62,187 bases of DNA, taken from NCBI GenBank assembly GCA_937888825.1, contig CALBFE010000071.1, forward strand, positions 1 through 62,187. The letters run 5' to 3'. This document shows, one piece after another, positions 35,766 to 43,150 of the stretch (position 1 is its first letter; each line of letters starts with the position of its first letter). A program made the position numbers and the translations under genes. This stretch comes from an uncultured Actinomycetes bacterium. GTDB lineage: Bacteria > Actinomycetota > Actinomycetes > Nanopelagicales > Nanopelagicaceae. The notes beneath the pieces are model-generated. The model did no database searches and had not been told where the DNA came from. It worked only from the letters and a program-made list of their open reading frames with translations.

Positions 35766-35783
35766 CGATAATCTTTGCTAGTA

Positions 35784-36419
35784 ATGACATCGACTGATTT
35801 AGTTAAAGAGAGCTCAGCGGAGCGTAACGCCCGCTTTGAGCGAGATGCCCTTGCTTTCACTAACCAGCTCTATGCAGCAGCATTGCGTTATACAAGAAAT
35901 CCTGATGATGCCAAAGATTTAGTCCAAGATACTTACTTAAAAGCTTTTGCTTCTTTCCATCAATTTGAGCCAGGTACAAATCTAAAAGCATGGCTCTATC
36001 GTGTTTTAACAACTACTTTTATTAATACCTATCGCAAAGATCAACGCCGCCCTCAATTATCAGCTGGTGAAATTGAAGATTGGCAGTTAGCAGATGCCGC
36101 ATCACACACAAGTAATCAAGGTAAATCTGCAGAAGTTGAAGCCCTTGAGAATCTGCCAGATAGCGATATCAAACGTGCACTGCAAGATATTCCAGAAGAG
36201 TTTCGAATAGCGGTCTATCTAGCCGATGTAGAGGGATTTTCTTATAAGGAGATCGCTGAGATTGTTGGCGTGCCAGCTGGAACGGTGATGTCCAGACTGC
36301 ACCGGGGAAGAAAACAGCTACGTGAGCGGTTAACAGAGTATGCGAAGGAACTTGGATATAACGTCAAAGCCAAGCCTGCGGCAAAGAAAACTGACCCTGA
36401 TGAGGGGGCAGACTCATGA
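35784..36419 (+). CDS. sigR: ECF sigma factor of SigR/SigH type
   Basis: A 211-residue ECF sigma factor. Region 2 is [31 protein letters not shown] with [15 protein letters not shown], and region 4 is [42 protein letters not shown]. Together with the RsrA-like gene that overlaps it by four bases, this is the thiol-oxidative stress pair of actinobacteria. ATG 35784 is preferred to the TTG at 35775; GATAAT at 35767-35772 could be its -10. The basic C-terminal tail (KAKPAAKK) is an extension of no known role. Confidence 0.92.
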
Positions 36420-36820
36420 GCTTTTCATTTGTGACCCCATGTAGCGAAGTACTCAACTCCTTCGTTCTACTTATCGAAGGCAATATTGAGCAACCACAGA
36501 TGCAGGTCATTGAGGTCCATGTTGCCCAGTGTCCAGCCTGTGAAGAAGAGCTTGCACATGAGCGTGCGATGCATTCTCTTGTGCAGCAAGTTTTGCGCCG
36601 CACATGCAACGAAGAAGCACCGGCTGAATTACATCACGCCCTCTTTAACCAAATTCATGGCCAGATAGCTGGCGCTTTTACTGAGGTTGTTACGCAGTTC
36701 AGCATGACTGAGATTTCTATTGAGATTGATGAATTCGGTCAAGTTGAACACCGCGAAGTAACGATCGAACACACCGAAGAAATTCGTTACATCAATGAAG
36801 GCGATAATCCCACCACTTAA
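36416..36820 (+). CDS. rsrA: RsrA-like zinc anti-sigma factor
   Basis: A 134-residue protein. Cys9, His35, Cys39 and Cys42 sit at the same spacing as RsrA residues 11, 37, 41 and 44, which bind Zn and form a disulfide when oxidised, releasing SigR. The ZAS motif is [22 protein letters not shown]. The C-terminal ~65 residues, rich in acidic beta strands ([19 protein letters not shown]), extend the protein beyond the ~105 residues of RsrA and are of unknown role. It is translationally coupled to the sigma factor gene. Confidence 0.9.
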
Positions 36821-37697: not shown

Positions 37698-38027
37698 ATG
37701 AGCAAATTTGGCACAGTCAAGGTATCGGGTGGTTCCATGCTTCCCGCATACCGAGATGGGGATTGGCTCTTTGTCAGTTGGATAGATGGGGCGGCGGGGT
37801 TAGCTGCGGTTGGAAAATCAATCGTTGGCAAGGTCGTTGTTGTAGAGCGTGAAGAAAGACCTGGAATCTTTTTAGTTAAACGCGTGCAGAAATTTCATAG
37901 TGACAAGTACTGGGTTGAGGGCGATGGTAACGAGAGCACTGATTCGCGCAGCTGGGGTTGGATAGCAGCCCAAGAGATTGTTGGTGTGGTTCTATTTCGT
38001 TACAAGCGAGGCAAAAAACTCGTTTAG
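37698..38027 (+). CDS. sodX: Nickel-type SOD maturation protease
   Basis: A 109-residue member of the S26 signal-peptidase-like family. The catalytic Ser is in VSGGSMLPAYRDGD (Ser13) and the Lys in FLVKRVQ (Lys61), followed by WVEGDGNESTDSR and EIVGVV, all typical. It has no membrane anchor, so it acts in the cytoplasm to cleave the SodN leader. It is divergent from sodN. Its TAG shares bases with the TAA of the convergent kgd gene. Confidence 0.93.
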   Translation: MSKFGTVKVSGGSMLPAYRDGDWLFVSWIDGAAGLAAVGKSIVGKVVVVEREERPGIFLVKRVQKFHSDKYWVEGDGNESTDSRSWGWIAAQEIVGVVLFRYKRGKKLV

Positions 38028-41000
38028 CGTGTGAAAGCTTCCAGCATTAAGGCTTTTTGTTCATCCTCATGCAAGTGATGATTTCCAGTTGCAGGTGCCG
38101 CTGTTGCTCTGCGAGAAATACGTCGCAAAATACGTGAACCAAATCCATGACCACCATGTTGTTCTGAAGTGCGAAGTGCAATATGTGACCATGGCCCTTG
38201 ATTTGCAGGTTCATCTTGCACCCACAATAAATTAGCATTTGGATGCTTATTAGCTTCTGCAACCATTTCATCAACTGGCAGTGGATACAAAAGCTCAACG
38301 CGAACAATTGCAGTTGAAGTTTCACCCAGCTTTGTGCGCTCTGCAACTAGATCGTGATAAACCTTGCCAGAACAGAAAATCACTCGAGAGGCGTTACTAA
38401 CTGAATCATCAGCAATAACTGGCTGGAAGTGTCCAGAGGTGAAATCACTTAATGCAGAGGCTGCAGCCTTTAAGCGCAACATTGATTTAGGTGTAAAGAC
38501 AATCATTGGTCGGCGAGCAGGGTTCTTTGCATGCCAGCGCAGTAAGTGGAAGTAAGAAGCAGGAGATGATGGCTGAGCCACAGTCATATTTTGCTCTGCG
38601 CAGAGTTGTAAGTAACGCTCGATACGTCCTGATGAGTGATCTGGTCCTTGGCCTTCATAGCCATGTGGCAAGAGCAGAACAACGGATGAGCGCTCACCCC
38701 ACTTTTGAAGTGCGGAAGAGATGAACTCATCAATAATTGTTTGTGCTCCGTTAGCAAAGTCGCCAAATTGGCCTTCCCATAAAACAAGGGCTTCTTCGCG
38801 CTCAACGCTATAGCCATATTCAAAACCCATGGCTGCATATTCACTGAGTAGTGAGTCAACAACAAAGAACTGGTTCTCATCAGAGATTAATGCACGAAGT
38901 GGTGTCCACTCATTTCCATTTTCTTTATCAACGATAACTGCGTGGCGGTTAGAGAAAGTTCCACGGCGTGCATCTTGACCAGCAAGGCGGATGGGACGGC
39001 CCTCTTTAAGAAGTGAACCAAATGCCAACATTTCTCCCGTTGACCAATCAATGGATGCATCATTGAGTGACTCAACGCGCTTAGCCAACTGTGGTGAAAG
39101 TTTTGGATGAACGTTAAAGCCCTCAGGAACTGTAGTTTGAGTTGCTGCAATCTCGCGCGCTAGCTGTTCTGTAATAGAAGTAACAATTGTGTTTGCATCC
39201 GGTGCAACTGGTGCCTTGAAGTTTGGATTAGTTTGCGCACTTAAGTTATTAACTGCAGCAAAGACGGCTTCAAGTTGTGACTGGTAATCGCGTGCTACTT
39301 CTTCTGCTTCTTCAACTGTGATGTCACCGCGTCCAATAAGTGCTTCGGTGTAGAGGTGGCGTGTAGAGCGCTTTGCATCAATGAGTTTGTACATCAATGG
39401 CTGAGTAAAGCTTGGCTCGTCGCCTTCATTGTGACCACGGCGGCGGTAGCAAACCATGTCAATGACAACATCTTTTTTGAATTCTTGGCGGTATTCAAAA
39501 GCTAAACGAGCAATGCGAACGCACGCCTCTGGATCATCACCGTTAACATGAAAAACAGGTGCCTGGATAATCTTGGCAAAGTCAGTTGAATAGCGTGAAG
39601 AACGAGCTGCACTTGGTGCAGTAGTAAAGCCCACCTGGTTATTTACAACAATATGAATAGTTCCACCTGTGCGATACCCAGCTAATTGAGACATCTGAAG
39701 TACTTCAGCGTTCACTCCTTGGCCAGCAAAGGCTGCATCACCATGGAGCAAAATAGGCAGGATTGAATAAGCATTTTTAATATTCAGGCGATCTTGCTTA
39801 GCGCGGACAATGCCCTCTAGAACTGGGTTAACGGCTTCTAAGTGTGAAGGGTTTGCTGCTAAATAGATCTTTGTTGTTGCACCAGAGTTCGCAGTGAAAA
39901 CCCCTTCGGTACCCAAGTGGTACTTAACATCGCCAGATCCTTGGACCTGATTGTTAGCATAGTGACCTTGGAACTCTTGAAAGATCTGTCCTGCAGATTT
40001 ACCGGCAATATTTGCCAAAATATTCAAACGCCCTCGGTGTGGCATTCCAATACATACCTCATCCATCTTTGTTTCTGCTGCAGATGAAATAACAGCATCA
40101 AGAAGTGGAATAACAGACTCGCCACCTTCTAGTGAGAAACGCTTTTGTCCAACGAACTTAGTTTGTAGGAAGTTTTCAAAGGCTTCAGCGCTATTGAGCT
40201 TGTGCAGAATTCGAAGTTGTTCTTCACGTGGGAATTGCTGCACCCCAACTTCAACGCGCTCTTGAATCCACTTACGCTCTGCCGGGGTTTCGATGTACAT
40301 GTACTCAACACCCACAGTGCGACAGTATGAATCCCGCAAAATTCCAAGAATCTTTCGTAGCAACATGAACTTCTGCCCACCAAAGCCACCAGTTGCAAAC
40401 TCACGATCAAGGTCCCATAGAGATAATCCATGGTTCTGGACATCTAAATCAGGGTGCGTGCGCTGAACGTATTCCAGCGGATCAAAATCTGCCATTAAGT
40501 GGCCGTTAGTGCGATAAGCGTGAATTAACTGCTGAATACGTGCAGTCTTATCAATCTCTTCATCATGGGCAAAGTCTTTATCTGCCGCCCAGCGAATTGG
40601 CTCGTATGGAATATGCAGGGCAGCAAAGATTTCATCATAGAAACCATCAGCTCCCAGAATGTATTCATGCATTCTGCGCAGGAAATCACCTGAAGTTGCG
40701 CCTTGAATAATGCGGTGATCGTAGGTGCTTGTGAGGGTAACAACCTTGCTAATAGCCAGACGGGCCAAAGTTTCTTCGCTAGAGCCAGCAAATTCAGCTG
40801 GGTAATCCAGCGCTCCAACACCAAGAATTAATCCTTGTCCCTGAACAAGGCGTGGCACTGAGTGCACTGTGCCAATTGTTCCTGGATTAGTAATAGACAT
40901 TGTTGTTCCTGCAAAATCCTCAACAGTGAGTGAACCATCACGTGCCTTTTTAACTACTTGTTCATAGGCGCTGCGGAACTGTGCAAAATCTAAAGACTCA

Positions 41001-41716
41001 CAACCTTTTACTGATGGCACTAAGAGCTGGCGTGAACCATCGGCTTTAGCTAAATCAATAGCAACGCCAAGGTTGATGTGTTCAGGTTTTCCGATAGCAG
41101 GCTTGCCATCTAATTCACCAAAGAATGCATTCATCTCTGGCATCGCACGAACTGCTTTAATCATGGCATAAGCGATGATGTGCGTAAAAGATACTTTTCC
41201 GCCACGAGCACGCTTCATGTGATTATTAATCACAATGCGGTTATCAATCATTAATTTTGCAGGAACTGCGCGCACTGATGTGGCAGTTGGAACTGAAAGT
41301 GAGGCTTCCATACTTTGCACAACGCGGGCAGAGACTCCACGAATTACCTCAAGAGTTGAAGCACTGGGTGTAGCTAAAACTGGTGCAGGTTTAACAACTG
41401 GATCAGCTGGCTTAGGTTGTACCGCCGCACTTTCACGAACTATTGGCTGAACATGTGGAACGGGTGCAGAAGTTTCAACAGGTGGAACTGGTTGTGGAGC
41501 TGGAGCTTTTTTCGAAGCCTTTGGGACAGGTGGAACACCCTTTGAAACTTGATTTGAAACTTGAGTGGTAGATGTAGATGCTGTGGCAGGAGATCCTGGT
41601 TTATTGTTTTTAAAATACTCAACCCATGCAGGGTCTACAGAAGAAGGATCCTGCAGATAGTGCTCGTACATTTCATCGACGAGCCAATCATTTGCACCAA
41701 AATCCTGTGCCGACAC
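38024..41716 (-). CDS. kgd: Multifunctional 2-oxoglutarate metabolism enzyme (E1o/E2 fusion, Kgd type)
   Basis: A 1230-residue actinobacterial fusion. Residues 1-40 are the N-terminal peptide NDWLVDEMYEHYLQDPSSV; ~45-115 a Pro/Ala linker; ~120-345 the E2-like acyltransferase core with the His in STYDHRIIQGA; the rest a thiamine-diphosphate E1 with MPHRGRLNILANIAG, HLGTEG, GDAAFAGQG and CYRRRGHNEGDEPSFTQP. It feeds the TCA cycle from 2-oxoglutarate as decarboxylase, dehydrogenase E1 or carboligase. The start is GTG 41716 with AAGGAG seven bases upstream. Length matches the mycobacterial enzyme. Confidence 0.97.
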   Translation of the reverse strand: MSAQDFGANDWLVDEMYEHYLQDPSSVDPAWVEYFKNNKPGSPATASTSTTQVSNQVSKGVPPVPKASKKAPAPQPVPPVETSAPVPHVQPIVRESAAVQPKPADPVVKPAPVLATPSASTLEVIRGVSARVVQSMEASLSVPTATSVRAVPAKLMIDNRIVINNHMKRARGGKVSFTHIIAYAMIKAVRAMPEMNAFFGELDGKPAIGKPEHINLGVAIDLAKADGSRQLLVPSVKGCESLDFAQFRSAYEQVVKKARDGSLTVEDFAGTTMSITNPGTIGTVHSVPRLVQGQGLILGVGALDYPAEFAGSSEETLARLAISKVVTLTSTYDHRIIQGATSGDFLRRMHEYILGADGFYDEIFAALHIPYEPIRWAADKDFAHDEEIDKTARIQQLIHAYRTNGHLMADFDPLEYVQRTHPDLDVQNHGLSLWDLDREFATGGFGGQKFMLLRKILGILRDSYCRTVGVEYMYIETPAERKWIQERVEVGVQQFPREEQLRILHKLNSAEAFENFLQTKFVGQKRFSLEGGESVIPLLDAVISSAAETKMDEVCIGMPHRGRLNILANIAGKSAGQIFQEFQGHYANNQVQGSGDVKYHLGTEGVFTANSGATTKIYLAANPSHLEAVNPVLEGIVRAKQDRLNIKNAYSILPILLHGDAAFAGQGVNAEVLQMSQLAGYRTGGTIHIVVNNQVGFTTAPSAARSSRYSTDFAKIIQAPVFHVNGDDPEACVRIARLAFEYRQEFKKDVVIDMVCYRRRGHNEGDEPSFTQPLMYKLIDAKRSTRHLYTEALIGRGDITVEEAEEVARDYQSQLEAVFAAVNNLSAQTNPNFKAPVAPDANTIVTSITEQLAREIAATQTTVPEGFNVHPKLSPQLAKRVESLNDASIDWSTGEMLAFGSLLKEGRPIRLAGQDARRGTFSNRHAVIVDKENGNEWTPLRALISDENQFFVVDSLLSEYAAMGFEYGYSVEREEALVLWEGQFGDFANGAQTIIDEFISSALQKWGERSSVVLLLPHGYEGQGPDHSSGRIERYLQLCAEQNMTVAQPSSPASYFHLLRWHAKNPARRPMIVFTPKSMLRLKAAASALSDFTSGHFQPVIADDSVSNASRVIFCSGKVYHDLVAERTKLGETSTAIVRVELLYPLPVDEMVAEANKHPNANLLWVQDEPANQGPWSHIALRTSEQHGGHGFGSRILRRISRRATAAPATGNHHLHEDEQKALMLEAFTR

Positions 41717-41852: not shown

Positions 41853-42788
41853 CTAGAGCCCTACGGCACGTTCAATCTCAGTCACGGCATGGGAAATATC
41901 TTGAACCACGACCACGTCTTTGCACTCGTCTTGGTTCCACCCCGGTCCGCCCAACACCACTCTGGGCATTGGTCGGATAGCCGGGATGTCATTGAAAAAC
42001 TTAGGATCAGCGTTTTTGGAAAGCTGTGCCCATAAGAACACTGCAGGTGGTGCAGATTTTGTAATCATTGCCGACAACGCTTCATGCGGTGTTCTGGATC
42101 CAAGAAAATGGGTTTCGATTTTGCGCTCAGCTAAAGCTGCAGCAAGTGCGTACAAAGCAAGTGAGTGCAGTTCTTCACCAACGGAAGCAAGCAATACTGG
42201 TTGAGCATTTACAGGTGTTTTAATATCTTCAACCCGCTCACGCAAAAGCGCTTTGAGGACCCCAGTGAGTAAGTGCTCGATTTCAATGCCTTTACCGCTT
42301 TCTTCCCAGTCACTTCCCACTAAGAATAAAAGTGGAACCATGACCTCAGACCATGATTGTTCAACACCGAACTCAGCTAGATCCTCGCGCAAGGCTGCTT
42401 TAATGAATTTCTTATCTAGGGCTTTGGCAGCTTTATGTAATACGTTTACTAATTCTTCACGGACTACATAGTCCTCAAGAATTCTTTCCACTGAGATTGT
42501 GCCTTTATGATTCTTAGCTTGCTGGGCTGCATCAGCGGGTGAAACTCCACTCGTGATTAATCTGCGCATCACAGTCAAACGCGCTAAATCCGCGGGGCTG
42601 TAGCGGCGGTGTTGACCGCTCTCATGGGCAGATGGGCCCAGGCCATAGCGGCGATCCCAGGTGCGAAGGGTGGCAGGGGCAACTCCCAGGCGGCGTGCTA
42701 CGGCCGCAACGCTCAGATGCTCTTCTTCGGTTTCCACTGGATAATCCTGGCTTGAAGTGGGCCAACTCACCAGTTGAAACACGTACAT
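41853..42788 (-). CDS. MerR-type regulator with B12-binding domain (CarH/LitR-like photoreceptor candidate)
   Basis: A 311-residue protein. A MerR helix-turn-helix lies near residues 25-75 (VAAVARRLGVAPATLRTWDRRYGLGP). A four-helix cap follows with DWEESGKGIEIEH, an exact W-x9-E-H, the adenosylcobalamin-sensing motif of CarH/AerR. Then a B12 fold begins with VGEELHSLALYALAAAL, in which E-x-H is kept while the usual Gly two residues later is Ala. These together predict a light- or B12-responsive DNA-binding protein. ATG 42788 lies seven bases from a TAGAAC -10; GTG 42737 with AGGA upstream is an alternative. It is divergent from whiB. Confidence 0.85.
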   Translation of the reverse strand: MYVFQLVSWPTSSQDYPVETEEEHLSVAAVARRLGVAPATLRTWDRRYGLGPSAHESGQHRRYSPADLARLTVMRRLITSGVSPADAAQQAKNHKGTISVERILEDYVVREELVNVLHKAAKALDKKFIKAALREDLAEFGVEQSWSEVMVPLLFLVGSDWEESGKGIEIEHLLTGVLKALLRERVEDIKTPVNAQPVLLASVGEELHSLALYALAAALAERKIETHFLGSRTPHEALSAMITKSAPPAVFLWAQLSKNADPKFFNDIPAIRPMPRVVLGGPGWNQDECKDVVVVQDISHAVTEIERAVGL

Positions 42789-42794
42789 AAGCAA

Positions 42795-42800
42795 GTTCTA
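42795..42800 (-). promoter_or_regulatory. Possible -10 of the MerR-B12 gene
   Basis: On the minus strand TAGAAC ends seven bases before the ATG 42788, as expected for a leaderless mRNA. No good -35 was found. Confidence 0.3.
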
Positions 42801-42812
42801 GAGCGTTGGGAC

Positions 42813-42841
42813 TTGAACAACCTATGGCGCGGTTGTACAGT
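42813..42841 (+). promoter_or_regulatory. whiB promoter, predicted leaderless
   Basis: TTGAAC (42813-42818), a 17-base spacer and TACAGT (42836-42841) place the start at the A of ATG 42848. The AAAGG before the ATG would then not be in the mRNA. The region is shared with the divergent MerR-B12 gene. Confidence 0.6.
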
Positions 42842-42847
42842 AAAGGC

Positions 42848-43150
42848 ATGGCTGAAATATCCCGATTACCCCGTCCCGTTGCTGATGAATGGGAATGGCA
42901 GTACCAAGGTTCATGCCGCGAGCTTCCAAGTGAGATGTTTTTCCATCCTGATGGCGAGCGCGGTCCGCGCCGTCGTAACCGTGAAAACACTGCCAAAGCT
43001 ATTTGTGCAGCATGCCCAGTAATTGCAGCATGCCGTGCACACGCACTCGCCGTGCAAGAGCCTTATGGAATTTGGGGCGGCCTTTCAGAAGATGATCGCT
43101 TAGTAATTATTGGTAAAGAAATTACACCAGATATTTCACATGCATCCTAA
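42848..43150 (+). CDS. whiB: WhiB-family iron-sulfur transcription factor (WhiB1/WblE-like)
   Basis: A 100-residue protein. Four Cys bind a [4Fe-4S] cluster: Cys in WQYQGSCRELPSEMFFHPDGERG, then CAACPVIAAC (C-x-x-C-x5-C). The turn GIWGGLSEDDR and the family WhiB1/WblE start AEISRLPRPVADEWEW are clear. WhiB1-like proteins partner with the principal sigma factor. ATG 42848 is chosen from the family start; the frame extends to 42806 without need. It is divergent from the B12-type regulator and convergent to groEL across a strong terminator. Confidence 0.95.
   Translation: MAEISRLPRPVADEWEWQYQGSCRELPSEMFFHPDGERGPRRRNRENTAKAICAACPVIAACRAHALAVQEPYGIWGGLSEDDRLVIIGKEITPDISHAS

Follow-up and report, generated by a model that had tools for sequence, protein, structure and literature searches.

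In the 62,187-nucleotide stretch of DNA analysed here, hereafter called the window, a gene for a LitR/CarH-type MerR regulator lies divergent to a gene for a WhiB3-type Fe-S regulator. The reading that we favour, with rather better than even confidence, is that the regulator would be a photoreceptor of the actinobacterial LitR branch, acting as an adenosylcobalamin (AdoCbl)-dependent dark repressor, and possibly as a light activator, of whiB3. The host genome (1.37 Mb, 99% complete) has Candidatus Planktophila, actinobacterium SCGC AAA044-N04 and IMCC26103 as its named relatives, which points to the freshwater acI group. The coding features of the pair are listed below; named motif residues (W131, H177, W222 and others) are numbered as in Thermus thermophilus CarH.

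41,853–42,737, minus strand: LitR/CarH-type MerR regulator gene, 294 residues, GTG start with AGGA seven bases upstream
42,522–42,716, minus strand: MerR winged-helix domain (Pfam), with recognition helix RTWDRRY (RxWERRY in CarH)
42,273–42,308, minus strand: Wx9EH motif WEESGKGIEIEH, residues 144–155, invariant in 110 of 110 congener orthologs
42,156–42,173, minus strand: ELHSLA, residues 189–194, aligned with the lower axial ligand position E175-x-H177, Ala replacing G180
42,024–42,032, minus strand: WAQ, aligned with SxT/V of CarH, exactly 41 residues after position 180
41,937–41,951, minus strand: GGPGW, the conserved GG of the B12 motif followed by the family-specific Trp251 (alignment)
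42,848–43,150, plus strand: whiB gene, WhiB3/WhiD-type, 100 residues, four conserved Cys (Pfam Whib, 1.7e-23)

The family architecture of CarH and LitR, a MerR DNA-binding domain joined to a B12-binding fold, is present in the regulator. A preliminary description made from the window had already recognised a MerR-type protein with a B12 fold, and this is confirmed by Pfam matches to MerR_1 (5.9e-16), B12-binding (1.6e-7; 31.6 bits against a cut-off of 32.1) and B12-binding_2 (0.008). The top PDB match is T. thermophilus CarH/LitR, with E values of 1e-17 for the single sequence and 1e-27 for the profile. Structure prediction, which had been proposed as a check, gave an AF2 model with a mean pLDDT of 86.8 (35 orthologs as input), whose C-terminal domains resemble the B12 domains of Thermus CarH with a TM score of 0.85 and an rmsd of 2.4 Å. 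The start codon had initially been placed at ATG 42,788, only 59 bases from whiB, and this has been revised. GTG 42,737 is preferred because it is preceded by AGGA and because only 52 of 104 congener loci keep an open frame as far as ATG 42,788, a stop intervening in the other half. The divergent spacing is thus probably 110 bases (42,738–42,847).

Residue conservation was scored in 110 congener (freshwater) orthologs and nine class relatives. The exact Wx9EH motif, which is the published CarH criterion for the four-helix bundle (PMC8156234 / PMC9304148) and caps the adenosyl group in CarH (PMC8156234), is found in the regulator and is followed by an E-x-H with Ala in place of Gly, as originally described. 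W131, E141, H142, H177 and both Gly of the GG pair are invariant in the 110 congener orthologs, and E175 is kept in 109. Since the first four of these residues never vary, the match is not a chance one. Lack of conservation of the His ligand had been named beforehand as an argument against a B12 light sensor; His177 is conserved class-wide (110/110 congeners and 9/9 class relatives), with one low-scoring exception in a wider set.

The view that these motifs form the hallmark of a B12 light sensor holds for Wx9EH and E-x-H, but not for the second half of the motif. The published consensus D/ExHx2G/P-x41-SxT/V-x22-27-GG (PMC8156234 / PMC9304148) is matched by the regulator in its Glu, its His, the spacings of 41 and 24 and the GG pair, whereas the G/P position is Ala and SxT/V reads WAQ. 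The resulting changes from CarH, Ser222 to Trp, Val224 to Gln and Ala251 to Trp, are conserved across the regulator's family; Trp222 occurs in all 110 congeners, in 8/9 class relatives and also in LitR-type proteins. The replacement of SxT/V by WAQ alters the B12-tail pocket, and this speaks against the AdoCbl light-sensor reading. Position 180, where the published motif allows G or P (PMC9304148), is A or P across the congener orthologs. His132, on which the bis-His light state of T. thermophilus CarH depends, was found neither in the regulator, where it is Glu, nor in the 110 orthologs, where it is E, A, Q or K; this particular light state is thus impossible in the regulator. Compared with the T. 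thermophilus structures (5C8D, 5C8A, 3WHP), the regulator therefore shares the fold, Wx9EH, the lower His, GG and both spacings, but only about 27% identity, and it differs by S222W, V224Q, G180A and H132E. CtMerR (8JBS), a confirmed MerR-B12 photoreceptor (PMC11796333), likewise carries Ala at 180 and has no His at 132 (Arg by sequence comparison), although it keeps SxT (as SAT) and is more distant from the regulator in the PDB search.

Canonical CarH identity is ruled out by WAQ in place of SxT/V, by the missing His132 and by the score of 96.4 bits against the NCBIfam CarH equivalog NF052513, far under its curated cut-off of 400. The four elements of the SignatureFinder photoreceptor signature (GxxW, EH, GxxH, GxxxP) are not all found either: GSDW, EH and GSRTP are present, but GxxH reads E-E-L-H, with Glu at G174 and the Gly one residue earlier. 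What stands of the proposed CarH-like B12 photoreceptor is thus the fold, the Ado-cap motif and the lower-ligand His, without the full CarH motif or a score above the NCBI cut-off. Because these last two are missing, the regulator is better filed with the actinobacterial LitR proteins. A search of 158 near-complete genomes from the class gave homologs at E ≤ 1e-30 in 73 of them, and the residue signature is also found in forty further loci.

The link to LitR passes through a syntenic protein of Streptomyces atratus rather than through S. coelicolor LitR itself. The gene of this LitR-type protein is divergent to an ECF sigma factor gene, with lycopene cyclase, phytoene synthase and crtI alongside; its motifs are Wx9EH, ENHTLP, WSQ and GPGW. 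In both tree and alignment it falls inside the regulator's family and shares its residue signature, so that, on sequence grounds, the regulator can be assigned to the actinobacterial LitR branch. Other family members adjoin genes for polyprenyl (GGPP-type) synthase, ECF sigma factors or photolyase. S. coelicolor LitR is reported to be a coenzyme-B12-based light sensor that represses the divergent litS in the dark and activates it in the light; in S. avermitilis, added B12 deepens dark repression and raises expression in the light (PMC12705666). The Streptomyces litR-litS-crt system resembles the present one in its MerR and B12 domains, Wx9EH, ExHxL(P/A), W222, GPGW, the absence of His132 and a gene divergent from that of a pleiotropic transcription regulator. 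It differs in that the partner is an ECF sigma factor within a carotenoid cluster, and not WhiB3 next to groEL. By analogy through the S. atratus protein, the Trp222 signature is compatible with B12 light sensing.

As the tail pocket is altered, a CarA-like state and a different tetrapyrrole both stay live as rivals. In the former, to which we give a minor chance, Trp222 and Trp251 would fill the B12 pocket and DNA binding would be constitutive or depend on a protein partner, the models being CarA of Myxococcus and class II LitR of Pseudomonas. CarA of M. xanthus indeed shares the MerR and B12-fold domains and an RxWERRY-type recognition helix with the regulator, and retains the lower B12 motif yet needs no B12 (PMC9304148); class II LitR works through a LOV protein (PMC9758184), and the fixation of S222W, V224Q and A251W in the family would suit a filled pocket. 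However, CarA has lost the Trp of Wx9EH (PMC9304148), whereas this Trp is invariant in the regulator family, together with E141, H142 and H177 in the 110 sequences. W222 is also found in the LitR-type proteins of Streptomyces, and a requirement for B12 has been reported for LitR (PMC12705666). Since the signature thus occurs in a Streptomyces LitR-type protein, and since S. coelicolor LitR is reported to be B12-based, B12 binding by the regulator remains likely by analogy.

The partner gene had been described as encoding a WhiB-type redox regulator, divergently transcribed, and this proves correct. Its product scores 118 bits against Mycobacterium tuberculosis WhiB3 and 49 bits against WhiB1, so that by sequence comparison it is a WhiB3 ortholog, and the gene sits beside groEL/groES. 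All 75 congener loci whose flanking DNA is long enough show it divergent to the regulator gene, as do most other families of the class; the arrangement is both genuine and ancient. In a 64-member tree, genes paired with WhiB occur in most lineages, the deepest among them, those paired with ECF are nested, and the choice between WhiB and ECF partner involves two changes. An ancestral WhiB pairing is thus likely, though short of proof, since the tree is rooted by a very long outgroup branch. In a sister genus with complete genomes (G141, G168), the regulator gene and the WhiB3-type gene are both absent, a joint loss.

The space between the two genes contains the following features.

42,738–42,847, no strand assigned: shared intergenic control region of 110 bases (98-sequence alignment)
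42,813–42,841, plus strand: whiB core promoter TTGAAC-17-TACAGT, with a TGAACA (TnnACA) half-site at −35 (98-sequence alignment)
42,817–42,836, no strand assigned: dyad ACAACC-N8-GGTTGT in the promoter spacer (genome scan)
42,789–42,808, plus strand: degenerate upstream copy of the site, AAGCAAGTTCTAGAGCGTTG (GAACAACTTCTGGAGCGTTG in relatives) (alignment)

Both promoters had been expected in this shared space; that of whiB is present and conserved, but none was identified for the regulator gene. Across 98 congeners the whiB promoter reads TTGAAC, a 17-base spacer and TAnnnT, and most positions of the segment ACTTGAACAACCTATGnCGCGGTTGTA are at least 90% identical. A standard sigma70 scan of the intergenic region returned no promoter, owing to its strict hexamer rules. 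As the promoter ends six bases before the ATG, the whiB transcript is probably leaderless.

The TGAACA overlapping the whiB −35 fits the CarH half-site TnnACA (PMC9304148). The form TG[AC]ACAA is found in 103/104 congener and 18/29 class intergenic regions (shuffle mean 1.5, maximum 5), and 11 of the 29 class loci are without it. It occurs in just 2/19 whiB3-type promoters that have no regulator partner (Fisher p=0.0007 against paired ones, an optimistic value because the loci are related). Four of six close same-strand half-site pairs are spaced by 11 or 22 bp, like CarH operators, two of these four being near relatives; such tandem spacing is seen in only a few class loci. A strict 11-bp tandem operator is absent from the window, which has degenerate steps only. 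The best-looking CarH-type operator seen is in a class relative (L202), whose whiB-carH intergenic region holds multiple TGAACAA half-sites on both strands and the tandem TGAACAACTTA-TGAACAAGTTT with an 11-bp period. The dyad has its sole perfect copy in the host genome here and is likewise single in the congeners listed. One-mismatch dyad matches recurring in three genomes (G004, G015, G010) were rejected as second operators, falling inside coding sequence, and photolyase promoters in congeners showed no clear half-site.

From these conserved elements, the regulator probably controls the whiB3 promoter. The resemblance of TG[AC]ACAA to an ordinary −35 element tells against an operator, and it is quite unlikely, though worth weighing, that the regulator senses light without whiB3 as its target, the pairing being inherited linkage and the conserved DNA a plain whiB promoter. 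TTGAAC fits a −35 as well, and the rest of the genome yielded no second convincing operator site; but the element tracks the gene pair and not whiB3 alone, the conserved block continues as a dyad across the promoter spacer, and the partner genes (WhiB or ECF sigma) were swapped only about twice on the tree.

For the photoreceptor reading, we infer the following course of events. In the dark, AdoCbl would lie between the four-helix bundle, with its Wx9EH, and the Rossmann domain, with His177, holding an oligomer together; this oligomer would repress the divergent whiB3 by binding TnnACA half-sites that overlap its −35. Green or blue light would cleave the Co–C bond and alter the oligomer, and the whiB3 promoter would be released or activated. 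The Fe-S regulator WhiB3 would then be made in the light and act according to its redox state.

The cell should both make and use AdoCbl, since a PduO-type cobalamin adenosyltransferase and a class II RNR are encoded in the host genome, although class II RNR alone would also explain this machinery. The adenosyltransferase is found in 73/73 class genomes with the regulator gene, and the eight genomes that lack it also lack the regulator gene (p=0.006), a weak co-occurrence because seven of these eight belong to one family and share ancestry. The least probable of the three rivals is a heme, a cobinamide, a different cobamide or another tetrapyrrole or corrinoid without the usual lower base, with Trp222 in the base pocket and a signal that comes not from light but from heme, redox or corrinoid supply: the upper- and lower-face residues are kept while tail-pocket residues were changed and then fixed, and a redox signal would go well with a redox partner gene, but Wx9EH is specific for capping the adenosyl group in CarH (PMC8156234) and family members accompany carotenoid and photolyase genes. 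The only other B12-fold protein of the genome (L001, 149–2100, contig C96) is a 221-residue stand-alone corrinoid protein, adjoining a 126-residue Cys-rich protein and a MetF-like reductase. In many congeners its place is taken by a protein of about 1190 residues, the length of MetH, which hints that the genus has two alternative systems for methyl transfer.

In actinobacteria, WhiB3-type proteins serve as redox regulators of development and virulence, and in many cases the drivers of their transcription are unclear. Through a pairing, across the class, with a family of B12 light sensors, they would receive a light signal from upstream. The acI-type bacteria, an abundant freshwater group with actinorhodopsin, would in addition gain a photoreceptor. 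Photoreceptors of this family are already known; a literature search that left many subscription papers outside its scope returned no link of LitR or CarH to WhiB and no Trp222/Trp251 signature. A bolder proposal, which we hold tentatively and at somewhat less than even confidence, has two parts: the ancestral job of the actinobacterial LitR photoreceptors would be to gate WhiB3, as a B12-light to Fe-S-redox relay in many families, the ECF sigma/carotenoid link of Streptomyces being a later swap, and the family would bind AdoCbl in a remodelled tail pocket (Trp222/Trp251) unseen in solved CarH structures. The fixed Trp pair raises the structural question of what holds AdoCbl in place when the tail pocket lacks its usual Ser, and the recurrence of the gene pair across many actinobacterial families makes a light-to-redox relay directly testable.

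Immediately downstream of the regulator gene, and on its strand, both the window (38,024–41,716) and its closest relatives have a gene for a 1230-residue protein, annotated by reading alone as of the fused 2-oxoglutarate dehydrogenase/succinyltransferase type. At 35,775–36,820, some six kilobases away from the regulator gene, an ECF sigma factor gene is followed by a zinc-finger (zf-HC2) anti-sigma-like gene, an arrangement that resembles the SigR/RsrA pair.
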